Below are positions 7,903 to 43,041 of a stretch of 62,438 nucleotides of DNA, piece after piece. Every line of letters begins with the position of its first letter. Position 1 is the stretch's first letter. Made by a program: the position numbers and the translations under genes. Origin of the DNA: an uncultured Eubacteriales bacterium (lineage in GTDB: Bacteria; Bacillota; Clostridia; Christensenellales; Aristaeellaceae); contig CADCHI010000007.1 in assembly GCA_902801165.1 (NCBI GenBank), positions 81,302 to 143,739 on the forward strand, read 5' to 3'. Under the pieces are notes generated by a model. That model made no database searches, was not told the DNA's origin, and saw only the letters and a program-made list of their open reading frames with translations.

Positions 7903-8004
7903 GGGAATAGGGATTAGACAAGTCAGTGGCTGCCGCGTTCTTTCTGAAGTCGTTGGAACAGAAGCGGCGGAAGCATCTTTTTCTAATCCCTAATCCCTAA
8001 TCCC
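7903..8004. repeat. Heptamer-repeat palindrome, locus A
   Basis: The left arm has GGGAATA GGGATTA G (7903-7917). The right arm has three perfect CTAATCC heptamers (7983-8003) in inverted orientation. The 65-bp core contains a further GCTGCCGC / GCGGCGG inverted pair and no ORF. This is the smallest of four heptamer loci in the window (others at 16471, 35177 and 42853). It fills the gap between the permease and the GH120 gene. Confidence 0.7.
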
Positions 8005-8060
8005 TTCTAAGGTAGTCCATTTACAGTCACCCTACCCATAAACAAGGAGGAACGACGCCC

Positions 8061-15113: not shown

Positions 15114-15197
15114 GGGGTGTAATCGGTCGAGAACGGCCATTTACACGAACATTATCGGCACCCATAGCAATTATCATTCGATTTTGAGGTGAATACA

Positions 15198-16472
15198 ATG
15201 TCCAATACCGCTATCGTCGGCATCAACTGGGGCGATGAGGGCAAGGGCCGCATGGTCGACTACTTCGCGGGCCAGTTCGACGTGGTCGTCCGCTACCAGG
15301 GCGGCAACAACGCCGGCCACACTGTCATCAACGAATACGGCAAGTTCGCGCTGAACCTGCTGCCCTCGGGCATCTTCCACCGCGACGCCATCAACCTGCT
15401 GGGCGCGGGCGTGGTGATCGACCTGAAGCACATCAACGGCGAGATGGCGCGCCTGCGCGAGAAGGGCGTGGAGATCACCCCCGACAACCTGAAGATCTCC
15501 GACCGCGCCATCATGGTGCTGCCCATCCATCCCAACCAGGACAAGTGGGAGGAGCAGCGCCTGGGCAAGGACCACTTCGGTTCCACCCTGCGCGGCATCA
15601 GCCCCATCTACGGCGACAAGTACATGAAGAAGGCCATCCAGATGGGCGACCTCATGCACCCCGCCACCCTGGAAAAGCACCTCAAGCGCCTGATCGACTG
15701 GAAGAACGAGACCATCGTGCAGGGCTACGGCCAGGACAAGATCGACTTCGACGAGACCCTGGCGTGGATCCACGAGTGGGGCGACAAGCTGATCCCCCAC
15801 ATCTGCGACGCCGGCGAGCTGCTGCAGGGCGCCGTGGACGCGGGCAAGAGCGTGATGTTCGAGGCCCAGCTGGGCGCGCTGCGCGACATCCAGTATGGCA
15901 TCTATCCCTTCACGTCCTCCTCCTCCCCGCTGGCGGCGGAGGCCCCTGTGGGCTGCGGCCTGCCGAGCATCAAGGTGGACGAGGTCATCGGCGTGACCAA
16001 GGCCTATTCCACCTGCGTGGGCGAGGGCCCCTTCGTGGGTGAGCTGGACGGCGACGCCGCCCACGACCTGCGCGAAGCTGGCGCGGAATACGGCGCGGCC
16101 ACCGGCCGTCCCCGCCGCGTGGCCTGGATGGACATCCCCGCCACCCGCTATGGCACCCGTCTCCAGGGCGCGACGGCGCTGGCGCTGACCAAGATGGACG
16201 TTCTGTCCTATTTGAAGGAGATCCCGGTCTGCGTGGCCTACAAGCTGAATGGCGAGACCATCGACCGCTTCCCCTACACCCCCGACCTGTACGACTGCGA
16301 GCCGGTCTATGAGACCCTGCCCGGCTGGAACTGCGACATCACCAAGGCCCGCAAGTGGGAGGACCTGCCGAAGGCCGCCCGTGATTACGTCGAGTTCATT
16401 GAAAAGCGCGTCGGCGCGCCCATCAAGTACGTGAGCGTTGGCGCAGAGAGAGAAGCGCTCATCATTCGATGA
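15198..16472 (+). CDS. purA: Adenylosuccinate synthetase
   Basis: Converts IMP, aspartate and GTP to adenylosuccinate in AMP synthesis; 424 aa. The GTP-binding loop NWGDEGKGRMVDY, the IMP loop GGNNAGHTV and STLRGISPIYGDK are all present. The open frame begins at a GTG at 15189, but GAGGTG lies 6 nt before the ATG at 15198, so I use that. Its stop codon overlaps the first base of a heptamer-repeat element that separates it from purB, the next enzyme of the same pathway, on the same strand. Confidence 0.95.
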   Translation: MSNTAIVGINWGDEGKGRMVDYFAGQFDVVVRYQGGNNAGHTVINEYGKFALNLLPSGIFHRDAINLLGAGVVIDLKHINGEMARLREKGVEITPDNLKISDRAIMVLPIHPNQDKWEEQRLGKDHFGSTLRGISPIYGDKYMKKAIQMGDLMHPATLEKHLKRLIDWKNETIVQGYGQDKIDFDETLAWIHEWGDKLIPHICDAGELLQGAVDAGKSVMFEAQLGALRDIQYGIYPFTSSSSPLAAEAPVGCGLPSIKVDEVIGVTKAYSTCVGEGPFVGELDGDAAHDLREAGAEYGAATGRPRRVAWMDIPATRYGTRLQGATALALTKMDVLSYLKEIPVCVAYKLNGETIDRFPYTPDLYDCEPVYETLPGWNCDITKARKWEDLPKAARDYVEFIEKRVGAPIKYVSVGAEREALIIR

Positions 16473-16948
16473 ATTGAGAATTAGGATTTAGGAATTAGGA
16501 ATTGGAATAGCTGCTGACGGGAACTCGAGGGTATCATTAATGCATGATAACATCGTGTTGGAAAAGGCAATGGATTTTTCCATTCGCATAGTCAGATTGT
16601 ATCAGTACATGACGACTGAAAAGAAGGAATTTGTGATTTCCAAGCAGCTCCTCCGCAGTGGAACGTCCATAGGCGCTAATATCACCGAAGCCTTGAGCGC
16701 GGTAAGCCGTCGTGATTTCCTGAACAAGATGTACATTGCCTTCAAGGAGTGTTCAGAATCGTTATACTGGATCGAACTCTTGTATAAAACCGAGTATCTG
16801 ACCATGTCCCAGTATCAAAGTATATCCTCGAATTGTACAGAATTGCGCAAACTGTTATCCAGTATTACCAAGACGACCAAGGCGAGATCATGATGTATCG
16901 GCATTGCTGGCTGCAATTCCTAATTCCTCATTCCTGATTTCTAATTCA
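16471..16948 (+). mobile_element. Heptamer-bounded element carrying a four-helix-bundle gene, locus B
   Basis: The left arm is five degenerate heptamers (GAATTGA, GAATTAG, GATTTAG, GAATTAG, GAATTGG; 16471-16505). The right arm is the same unit inverted (AATTCCT, CATTCCT, GATTTCT, AATTC; 16915-16948). Between them is one ORF of 117 aa. The unit starts on the purA stop codon and ends 18 bp before the purB start, as if inserted into a purA-purB operon. Three other heptamer loci in the window have the same arm design but no ORF. Confidence 0.65.
16540..16893 (+). CDS. Four helix bundle protein (S23 / bAvd-like)
   Basis: Small basic helical protein, 117 aa, of the family TIGR02436/PF05635 found inside 23S rRNA intervening sequences and related to the accessory protein Avd of diversity-generating retroelements. 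Family features: KAMDFSIRIVRLYQYM at the start, KQLLRSGTSIGANITEAL in helix 2, DFLNKMYIAFKECSESLYWIELL, and the KLLSSITKT end. The biochemical role of free-standing members is unknown. The composition is clearly more AT-rich than the flanking purA and purB, and inverted heptamer arrays enclose it, both signs of mobility. No reverse transcriptase is nearby. Confidence 0.85.
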   Translation: MHDNIVLEKAMDFSIRIVRLYQYMTTEKKEFVISKQLLRSGTSIGANITEALSAVSRRDFLNKMYIAFKECSESLYWIELLYKTEYLTMSQYQSISSNCTELRKLLSSITKTTKARS

Positions 16949-16966: not shown

Positions 16967-18394
16967 ATGAATAAAAGCACCTACGAAACTCCCTTGAACA
17001 GCCGCTACGCGAGCCCGGAGATGCAGTACATCTTCTCCCCCGACAAGAAGTTCACCACCTGGCGCAGGCTGTGGGTGGCCCTGGCCGAGAGCGAGATGGA
17101 ACTGGGCCTGCCGGTCACGCAGGCGCAGGTGGACGAGCTGAAGGCGCACATCGAGGACATCGACTACGAAAACGCCCGCAAGCACGAGCAGCGGGTGCGC
17201 CATGACGTGATGGCCCACGTGCATGCCTACGGCGACGTGTGCCCGAACGCCCGCGGCATTATCCACCTGGGCGCGACGAGCTGCTACGTCACCGACAACG
17301 CGGACATCCTGATGCTGCGCGACGCCCTGACCCTCATCCGCGAAAAGCTGGTGGAGGTCCTGCGCCGCCTGAGGAAGTTCGCCTGGGAGTACAAGGGCCT
17401 GCCCTGCCTGGGCTACACCCACCTGCAGCCCGCGCAGCTGACCACCGTCGGCAAGCGCGCCACGCTGTGGATGCAGGATCTGACCATGGACCTGGACGAG
17501 GTCAACTTCGCCCTGTCTTCCCTCAAGCTGCTGGGCAACCGCGGCGCGACGGGCACGCAGGTCAGCTTCATGGAGCTGTTCGACGGCGACGGCGACAAGG
17601 TGGACGAGCTGGAAAGGCGCATCGCCGAGAAGATGGGCATGGAGGCGGTGTTCGACGTCTCCGGCCAGACCTATCCCCGCAAGCTGGATTCCCGCGTGCT
17701 GGGCTGCCTCTCCGGCATCGCCCAGAGCGCCTACAAGTTCGCCCAGGACCTGCGACTTCTCCAGTCCTTCCGCGAGGTGGAGGAGCCCTTTGAGAAGAGC
17801 CAGATCGGCTCCTCGGCCATGGCCTACAAGCGCAATCCCATGCGCTCCGAGCGCATCTGCGCGCTGTCCCGGCATGTGATGGCCGTCTATCAGGACGCCG
17901 CCATGACCGCCGCCACCCAGTGGTTCGAGCGCACGCTGGACGACTCCGCCAACCGCCGCCTGTCGCTGCCCGAGGCCTTCCTCGCCACCGACGCGGTGCT
18001 GGAGCTGTACGCCAACGTCGCCGACGGCATGGTGGTCTACCCGAAGATGATCGAGAAGCGCGTGATGGAGAATCTGCCCTTCATGGCCACCGAGGACATC
18101 ATCATGGAGTCCGTCAAGAACGGCGGCGACCGCCAGGAGATCCACGAGCGCGTGCGCGTGCACTCCCAGGCCGCGGCCACCCGCATGAAGGCCGAGGGCC
18201 TGGAGAGCGACCTGATGGAGCGCATCGCCGCCGACCCCGCCTTCCCCATCAGCCATGAGGCGCTGACCGCGCTGCTGGCCCCGGAGAAGTACACCGGCCG
18301 CGCCGAGGCGCAGACCGAGCGCTTCCTGACCCACACCGTGGACCCCATCCTGGCGAAATACAACGCCGTGGACATGGGCAAGATAAGCGTATAA
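16967..18394 (+). CDS. purB: Adenylosuccinate lyase
   Basis: Acts twice in purine synthesis: SAICAR to AICAR, and adenylosuccinate to AMP. 475 aa. The fumarase/aspartase superfamily signature is SSAMAYKRNPMRSE with the catalytic serine loop; HLGATSCYVTDNAD and YTHLQPAQLTT carry the catalytic histidines. The frame is open from 16904, but CTGGAGG sits 5 nt before the ATG at 16967 and upstream codons lie in the repeat arm. The pairing with purA is functional; three hairpins follow the stop. Confidence 0.95.
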   Translation: MNKSTYETPLNSRYASPEMQYIFSPDKKFTTWRRLWVALAESEMELGLPVTQAQVDELKAHIEDIDYENARKHEQRVRHDVMAHVHAYGDVCPNARGIIHLGATSCYVTDNADILMLRDALTLIREKLVEVLRRLRKFAWEYKGLPCLGYTHLQPAQLTTVGKRATLWMQDLTMDLDEVNFALSSLKLLGNRGATGTQVSFMELFDGDGDKVDELERRIAEKMGMEAVFDVSGQTYPRKLDSRVLGCLSGIAQSAYKFAQDLRLLQSFREVEEPFEKSQIGSSAMAYKRNPMRSERICALSRHVMAVYQDAAMTAATQWFERTLDDSANRRLSLPEAFLATDAVLELYANVADGMVVYPKMIEKRVMENLPFMATEDIIMESVKNGGDRQEIHERVRVHSQAAATRMKAEGLESDLMERIAADPAFPISHEALTALLAPEKYTGRAEAQTERFLTHTVDPILAKYNAVDMGKISV

Positions 18395-35176: not shown

Positions 35177-35361
35177 GAATCAGGAATGAGGAACCCGGCG
35201 CAAATCCGGACATTCCCACATCGACCGGATTCCCAATTTCTAATCCCTAATCCCTAATTCCTAATCCCTAATCCCTGATTCCCCATTCCTGATTCCTCAC
35301 TCCCAATTCCCAATTCATAATTCCTAACTCCTAATTCTCAATTCCCCATTCCCAATTCTCA
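35177..35361. repeat. Heptamer array with 19 tandem units, locus C
   Basis: From 35229 to 35361 there are exactly 19 consecutive 7-bp units of consensus ATTCCTA (variants ATCCCTA, ATTCCCA, ATTCTCA, ACTCCTA). On the left (35177-35193) are two and a half units of the inverted sequence (GAATCAG, GAATGAG), with a 35-bp core between. The array ends 26 bp before the ATPase gene, inside the transporter operon. It is not a CRISPR: no spacers. Confidence 0.8.
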
Positions 35362-35387
35362 ATTATCTCAAGGAGCGTACACCAGCT

Positions 35388-42761: not shown

Positions 42762-42852
42762 TTTGTTTCCTCCTCGCTCTTGTTGATGGTTTGATTATAC
42801 ACGAAAGGGAACGCAAAAAGGTCGTTTGGCAAGCGACAAATGATTGACAGTC

Positions 42853-43041
42853 AACAGGCATCAGGCAACAGGCAGTAGTCAGGAAGCCGCTTCCGCATTT
42901 TCGCCCAATCCCACGCTAAAGGCGGCAGCCACTATTCCTTTTCCCTCATCCCTTTTCCTTAGGCGCAGATAAAAAGGCGGCAGCCACACTCTGACTGTTC
43001 CCTGTTGCCTGTTGCCTATTGCCTTTTCCCCGTTCCCTGAA
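42853..43041. repeat. Heptamer-repeat palindrome, locus D
   Basis: Left arm AACAGGC, ATCAGGC, AACAGGC, AGTAGTC (42853-42880). Right arm seven inverted units from GACTGTT to CCCTGAA (42993-43041) in an exact 7-bp register. The unit sequence differs from loci A-C but the plan is the same. The core has a direct repeat AAAGGCGGCAGCCAC. A 15-bp stem-loop (43038-43072) abuts it, ending at the stop of the macro gene. Confidence 0.65.

Follow-up and report, generated by a model that had tools for sequence, protein, structure and literature searches.

Anatomy of the insert between purA and purB

Why does a gene for an S23-type four-helix-bundle protein, enclosed by inverted arrays of a 7-bp unit, lie between purA and purB, and does this arrangement represent a resident device or a mobile unit? 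The locus is part of a 62,438-nucleotide stretch of DNA from an uncultured Eubacteriales bacterium, which we refer to in its entirety as the window. A preliminary interpretation of these letters alone (the sequence-only reading) had proposed a candidate mobile unit, and its parts are located as follows.

16471–16948, + strand: whole element, the S23 gene enclosed by inverted heptamer arms (based on the arrays, the empty sites in sister genomes and the RNA fold)
16471–16503, + strand: left arm, an array of heptamers of the GAATTAG type that is rich in purines on the coding strand and overlaps the purA stop codon
16540–16893, + strand: S23 (four-helix-bundle) gene, 117 aa (TIGR02436, E 3.6e-32; PF05635, E 4.6e-29; 2rld, E 3.5e-41)
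16915–16947, − strand: right arm, inverted heptamer array
15189–16472, + strand: purA, the upstream neighbour on the 5' side of the site (TIGR00184, 437.5 bits, above the cut-off)
16967–18394, + strand: purB, the downstream neighbour on the 3' side of the site (TIGR00928, 403.7 bits, above the cut-off)

The limits of the element are those that the sequence-only reading had described. The left array of degenerate GAATTAG units has as its first base the G in the stop codon of purA (TGA, 16470–16472), the right array is inverted and ends ∼18 bp before the purB ATG at 16967, and the two flanking genes are indeed purA and purB, based on their matches to TIGR00184 and TIGR00928. Each arm has an array score of 25.5 on a GGAATTA ruler, and Tandem Repeats Finder likewise detects both arms. 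The window contains five arrays that score at least 10, compared to none in 17 of 20 order-2 shuffles and one in the remaining 3. The left arm and the inverted right arm match with a local score of 24, and the element thus has terminal inverted repeats. The RNA of the element strand is predicted to fold with the arms as the closing stem (z −3.86, with equally good folds in 0 of 100 shuffles). The site lies between two protein genes, rather than in a 23S or 16S rRNA gene.

The S23 gene is the sole content of the element, as had been supposed. The protein matches the entire TIGR02436 model (positions 1–109 of 109) with 110.8 bits (cut-off 24) and PF05635 with 101.2 bits (cut-off 33.8), and this 117-aa reading frame is the only ORF of at least 80 aa that lies wholly between the arms, such that no transposase gene is present there. 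Its GC content (43%, with 42–43% for the insert) is below that of both neighbours (65% for purA and 66% for purB), also in agreement with the sequence-only reading. Neither PADLOC nor PHROGs yielded a match for the S23 protein, and we rejected a defence gene and a phage family as readings on this basis. The entry of its solved relative, 2rld, has five chains.

Presence, absence and exchange at the purA–purB site

We searched for the purA–purB junction in 28 genomes of the genus, including that of the window, and read the junctions. A full S23 element is present in eight genomes (L110–L117, the window among them), an internally deleted copy in one (L132), and an ORF-less heptamer hairpin in one (L122, with an 82 bp junction). 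The empty sites that had been suggested as a check on mobility exist: five junctions contain only 10–33 bp (L119, L127, L128, L134 and L136). Eleven junctions have other content with no S23 match in the locus, and two were not readable (L126 and L131). Similarly, a second array of the window, at 35177–35364 (described below), was not seen by eye in the 10 sister junctions that were readable among the 28 genomes, the closest sister (G403) being broken across two contigs at that site. The sister purA–purB junctions are too diverged for reading of single bases, target-site duplications included; by eye, the array itself seems to provide the purA stop codon in L116 and L132. The presence of S23 is sporadic, with S23 genes in 20 of the 28 genomes in the genus and in 103 of 396 in the order.

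The insert turns over faster than its flanks. Between the window genome and G403, the 757 codons of purA and purB specify 99% identical amino acids with a dS of 0.178, while the S23 proteins are 69% identical, with a dS that is saturated and not computable. Similar results are obtained for G397 and G415, in which the flank dS is 0.207, but S23 is 68% identical with a dS of 1.94. The pair G396 and G415 fits plain descent (flank dS 0.266; S23 dS 0.551 and 95% identity), and S23 therefore need not evolve fast. The insert at this site is exchanged, by insertion or by recombination; homologous recombination, rather than transposition, would equally yield turnover of the insert between 99% identical flanks. 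In protein trees, the eight purA–purB S23 copies group together in 0% of 200 bootstrap trees, but a single clade of these copies, as from one old origin at the site, is not rejected by the AU test (P = 0.231), and we therefore do not argue for independent insertions from the tree alone; the comparison with the flanks carries the argument instead. No near-identical S23 copies were found at two sites of one genome, and the two identical copies in G400, which might have represented a fresh transposition, lie on contigs that overlap over 2517 bp at 100%.

The S23 protein is under purifying selection in the free-standing copies. The dN/dS values of seven S23 pairs at shared sites are 0.04, 0.14, 0.00, 0.00, 0.27, 0.03 and 0.17, with little information in the two pairs with a dS below 0.1. 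Such selection (dN/dS 0.00–0.27) would be expected if S23 and the arrays were a resident regulatory device, inherited and not mobile, in which S23, bound to heptamers of the intercistronic RNA, controls the neighbouring genes; moreover, most TAACTGA repeats of one genome are reported to lie just 5' of start codons, and a translational role was proposed for them (MacGregor 2015, PMC4679880). We consider this explanation unlikely, given that 5 of the 28 genomes have an empty site and 2 a decayed one, and given the replacement of the insert between flanks that are still 99% identical, the sporadic presence of S23 (20 of 28 genomes in the genus and 103 of 396 in the order) and the copies on plasmids described below.

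Heptamer arrays and S23 genes in other loci and genomes

The pairing of gene and arrays recurs elsewhere. The window genome (88.6% complete) has two TIGR02436 matches in all, both with heptamer arms; the second gene, between gyrB and gyrA, has arms of GGGAAAA, a heptamer unlike that of the purA–purB copy. A scan of genome contigs yielded 48 S23 relatives, most of them in MAGs, whose hosts, according to the record titles, include Clostridia, Bacteroidales, Cyanobacteria, Neisseriaceae, Synergistales, Acidobacteria, Sulfurovum, CPR groups and others. The full set of loci, all collected through their S23 gene, began with 172 that had a match, of which 164 were distinct after exact duplicates were merged and 160 were counted, 4 having a flank of <150 bp; it joins the contig relatives with others from the order and the genus, the order-level ones being 29 new loci and the next 80 down the list of matches. 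Since the loci are related by descent, with many from MAGs, counts over the 160 are not independent.

The association between S23 genes and heptamer arrays, which the sequence-only reading had proposed to examine, is real and extends across phyla. Of the two outcomes that this reading had named as refuting it, a lack of such an association and a lack of empty sites, neither was observed. The best tandem period is 7 in 97 of 160 upstream flanks and 84 of 160 downstream flanks, but in only 21 of 328 control windows, which were taken elsewhere in the same loci and are not matched for intergenic position. A period-7 score of at least 12 is found on both flanks of 72 loci and on either flank of 105, compared to 11 of the 328 control windows; the best period that is not a multiple of 7 reaches a score of 12 in 30 of 160 upstream and 23 of 160 downstream flanks. 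The heptamer unit varies between loci and genomes, but the arms agree within a locus. The median score of the left arm against the inverted right arm is 23, but is 12 against GC-matched foreign arms and 13 in the direct orientation, and scores of at least 20 are reached by 95 of 160 inverted pairs, 27 of 160 direct pairs and 6.2% of foreign pairs, although only in 83 of the 160 loci do the two arms outscore every one of the 15 GC-matched foreign arms. The arrays also have a polarity: the purine-rich arm is upstream of S23 in 68 of 72 loci and the pyrimidine-rich arm downstream in 65 of 72.

S23 loci on plasmids and phages, represented by 20 of 27 matches (H11, H13, H17, H19, H20, H21 and H27 were left out), mostly share the design: in 18 of these 20, the best period on each side is 7 or 14. 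The exceptions are L275, which has another kind of inverted arms (score 40), and the phage locus L288. Plasmid S23 genes were also observed between or beside cas2/cas1, hsdS/hsdR, a methylase and DUF1156/Swt1 (L269, L281, L284, L285, L286 and L287), and the gene order DUF1156, S23, Swt1 recurs in Gloeocapsa and Chlorohelix. The S23 copy on a Monoglobus plasmid (L269, 901–1248) is 66% identical to the window protein, but has two in-frame stop codons and no annotated gene.

The 55 of 160 S23 loci with no period-7 flank at a score of 12 weigh against the reading of gene and arrays as one element. A 7-mer occurs at least three times in a flank of 51 of these 55 loci (control 35 of 116), and at least two inverted copies of a flank 7-mer occur on the opposite side in 11 of 55 (control 0 of 116). 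A second arm design is found in these 11 loci (L052, L056, L059, L153, L159, L160, L177, L181, L187, L201 and L219), consisting of inverted arrays in which a 7–9 nt linker (AGTTATATT, ATGAATTG, ACATCAC or GTGAAAT) alternates with short hairpins of changing sequence. Ten of the 55 loci were checked for a large-subunit rRNA match and had none, which argues against their being 23S intervening sequences (IVS). As a separate observation, Gut-1 RNA (RF01706) is found near S23 genes in 2 of 10 loci scanned (L056, 1873–1943; L214, 808–884).

Heptamer units without an S23 gene are present in the window itself, in three loci.

7903–8005, no strand assigned: ORF-less unit with a short GGGAATAGGGATTAG arm (7903–7917), an inner motif GTGGCTGCCGC (7926–7936) and a CTAATCC array (7983–8005)
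35177–35364, no strand assigned: ORF-less unit with a short + arm (35177–35193) and a long inverted array (35229–35364)
42847–43039, no strand assigned: ORF-less unit with another heptamer (CAGGCAA / TTGCCTG) and the inner motif at 42922–42932 and 42977–42987 on the − strand

The sequence-only reading had noted three nearby ORF-less loci with the arm design of the S23 element, and three are indeed present, but the third uses CAGGCAA / TTGCCTG rather than GAATTAG. The genome of the window has 30 loci with GGAATTA-type arrays, 16 of which are arranged as convergent pairs spaced by no more than 800 bp, S23 being present in one case. A core of GCAAATCC-loop-GGATTTG is present at nine places in this genome (reversed control 0), all nine of which adjoin a heptamer array; five are flanked by arrays on both sides. 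A second inner motif, G(T/C)(C/G)GCTGCCGC, was first spotted by eye and then searched for across array loci and S23 loci, where 10 of 15 matches are just inside heptamer arms and 5 of 15 elsewhere; it is common to S23-bearing elements (L112, L113 and L117) and ORF-less ones (L228, L238 and places in L111 and L112). GTSGCTGCCGC has three matches in the window, each inside an ORF-less heptamer locus (0.24 expected), although the pattern was written after seeing these same places, and the expected number is thus no independent test; the exact inner motif is missing from the window's own S23 element. We take the ORF-less and S23-bearing units, which share their arms, as one family. By eye, another inverted-repeat element (AGAGTCTGTTTCTAAAATGC type) lies within heptamer units of L006, L007, L011 and L223 and within the S23 element of L117.

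Across whole genomes, the arrays use the unit of the resident S23 locus in three of four cases, based on counts of matches that reflect units more than loci, since tandem matches overlap. The pattern for the GGAATTA unit (GGAATTAGGAATTAG) has 72 matches in the window genome and none in its reversed control. The genome of L076 has 51 matches to GGAATTC units (reversed control 4), compared to 0–1 in 11 other genomes, and GAACAGT units have 153 matches in the Pleurocapsa genome of L079 and at most 6 in 11 other genomes. The exception is Sulfurovum, whose unit has 5 matches at two places in its own genome and 4 in G426, and for which the unit read in reverse, used as the control, is a heptamer unit too and has up to 16 matches. 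Within the genus, genomes with more S23 genes have higher counts of GGAATTN units, the only pattern used there (Spearman 0.48, P = 0.009; Mann–Whitney P = 0.017). The correlation is only moderate, and we rejected a rule that arrays need a resident S23 gene, given three clear exceptions (G408, G410 and G419), in which no S23 was detected but 82–125 array matches are present.

The persistence of arrays in those three genomes would be consistent with the arrays being ordinary slippage-prone simple repeats, with S23 merely located in the same loose intergenic DNA, particularly as long simple repeats are described as being most often heptanucleotides in the majority of genomes, and polymerase slippage has been proposed as their origin (Mrazek 2007, as told in PMC4679880). 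Slippage is nonetheless quite unlikely to be the explanation, as it does not lead one to expect arrays that are inverted on both sides of a gene, have one polarity (68 of 72) and match within the locus; nor do control windows, although not matched for intergenic position, often reach a score of 12 (11 of 328).

A probable mobile element with precedents in rRNA

We conclude, with moderate confidence, that the element at purA–purB belongs to the S23/IVS type of mobile DNA, as a small selfish element made up of an S23 gene flanked by inverted arrays of a short unit, usually of 7 bp, that the S23 protein would bind the arms, and that S23-less copies are non-autonomous or decayed relatives. As judged from the sequences, S23 is a probable array-binding protein, which agrees with the suggestion of the sequence-only reading that it may recognise or propagate the arrays. 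In the mechanism that we envisage, the protein, a ring of five in its solved relative, would bind the repeated arm unit as a hairpin in either DNA or RNA, and host enzymes may then copy or insert the unit marked in this way. If the ring does bind a 7-bp unit, this would explain why the arms are arrays, why one unit is common to both arms, and why the unit can drift while the arms are kept alike. In the transcript, the paired arms may form a stem that closes around the gene, such that insertion inside an operon would be tolerated, perhaps by analogy with RNase III cutting, which makes 23S rRNA IVS tolerable.

The window element resembles the 23S rRNA IVS of Coxiella and Leptospira in that a single S23 ORF is found in a stem-forming insert of sporadic distribution (PMC4990558), and in its complementary ends, since its arms pair as the predicted closing stem. 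In Coxiella, the likeness includes the repeats, as tandem GACAGAT heptamers, two or three depending on the strain, precede the S23 ORF (Warrier 2016, PMC4990558). The window element differs in that it lies between protein genes, has inverted arrays on both sides and has ORF-less relatives genome-wide. Thus, the claim that no element of this kind had been described stands in part: S23 inserts with heptamers were already in print for rRNA, although not interpreted in this way, but we are apparently dealing with an undescribed form where such elements are free-standing, have inverted arrays and are accompanied by ORF-less relatives. Among the matches listed in a search of open-licence literature, judged by titles and the beginnings of abstracts, none joined S23 genes to heptamer arrays outside rRNA. 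We read the free-standing, rRNA-associated and ORF-less units as one family of IVS-like mobile elements. According to the Coxiella study, S23 proteins have solved structures but no known function, and S23p of X. campestris is a homopentamer (PMC4990558).

The same study provides the basis for a different view, in which only the RNA matters, the arms being an IVS-like processing hairpin that makes the insert harmless and the S23 protein being cargo with no part in movement: RNase III excises the IVS of Coxiella, the S23p of which is apparently not made (PMC4990558). The fold of the window element, with its arms as the closing stem (z −3.86), fits this view equally, but the purifying selection on free-standing S23 copies, even with two of the seven pairs differing too little, makes it quite improbable that the protein is a passenger.

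Heptameric simple repeats, called STRR in cyanobacteria, are a second point of comparison for the element. The arrays of the window share with those of cyanobacteria, with GGGAATC of Xanthomonas and Nostoc and with TAACTGA of Beggiatoaceae the form of degenerate, mostly intergenic tandem heptamers, and the window heptamer likewise recurs in its genome (72 matches versus 0 for the reversed control). REPIN/RAYT and MITE systems are similar in another respect, consisting of numerous copies of short, gene-less inverted units on which a protein possibly acts in trans; the S23 element differs from them in that its ends are tandem arrays, its unit differs between genomes and no transposase lies between its arms. 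In X. campestris, 70 convergent pairs of heptamer arrays were reported (Rehm 2015, PMC4692102), and the possibility that a repeat-binding protein is itself the mobile element was considered (MacGregor 2015, PMC4679880); a text search of these two papers found S23 mentioned 0 times. Subirana 2021 (PMC8161180) concerns repeats of other sizes.

Avd of diversity-generating retroelements (DGRs) belongs to the same four-helix-bundle family as S23. S23 might by this kinship be a retroelement accessory that works with a reverse transcriptase in trans, but this is very improbable as a general requirement, because 14 of the 20 genomes of the genus that carry S23 lack an RVT_1 match, including G329 with 1387 array matches, although drafts could hide one. 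A resident reverse transcriptase thus seems not to be required in general for S23 elements. RVT_1 matches are present in 8 of the 28 genomes of the genus, and the single match in the window genome is on a different contig (G000:C14), with none near the element, which differs in this from the Avd/DGR arrangement. The term PF05635 appears three times in a DGR paper (PMC10053308).

More tentatively, S23 elements may form their own class of mobile DNA across phyla, in which a non-enzymatic ring protein recognises tandem units that are reinvented in each lineage, builds the arms or keeps them alike, and spreads both S23-bearing and S23-less units; in that event, both the 23S IVS and the heptamers known from cyanobacteria, Xanthomonas and Beggiatoaceae would represent remnants or special cases of this class. 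Neither the number seven nor the spread of tandem heptamers has been accounted for in the long-standing reports of such repeats in bacterial genomes, and the link to S23 is a concrete lead on the origin of these seven-letter repeats. It joins two puzzles and makes both testable, and it offers a role for a protein family whose members usually bear no annotation other than ‘four helix bundle protein’.
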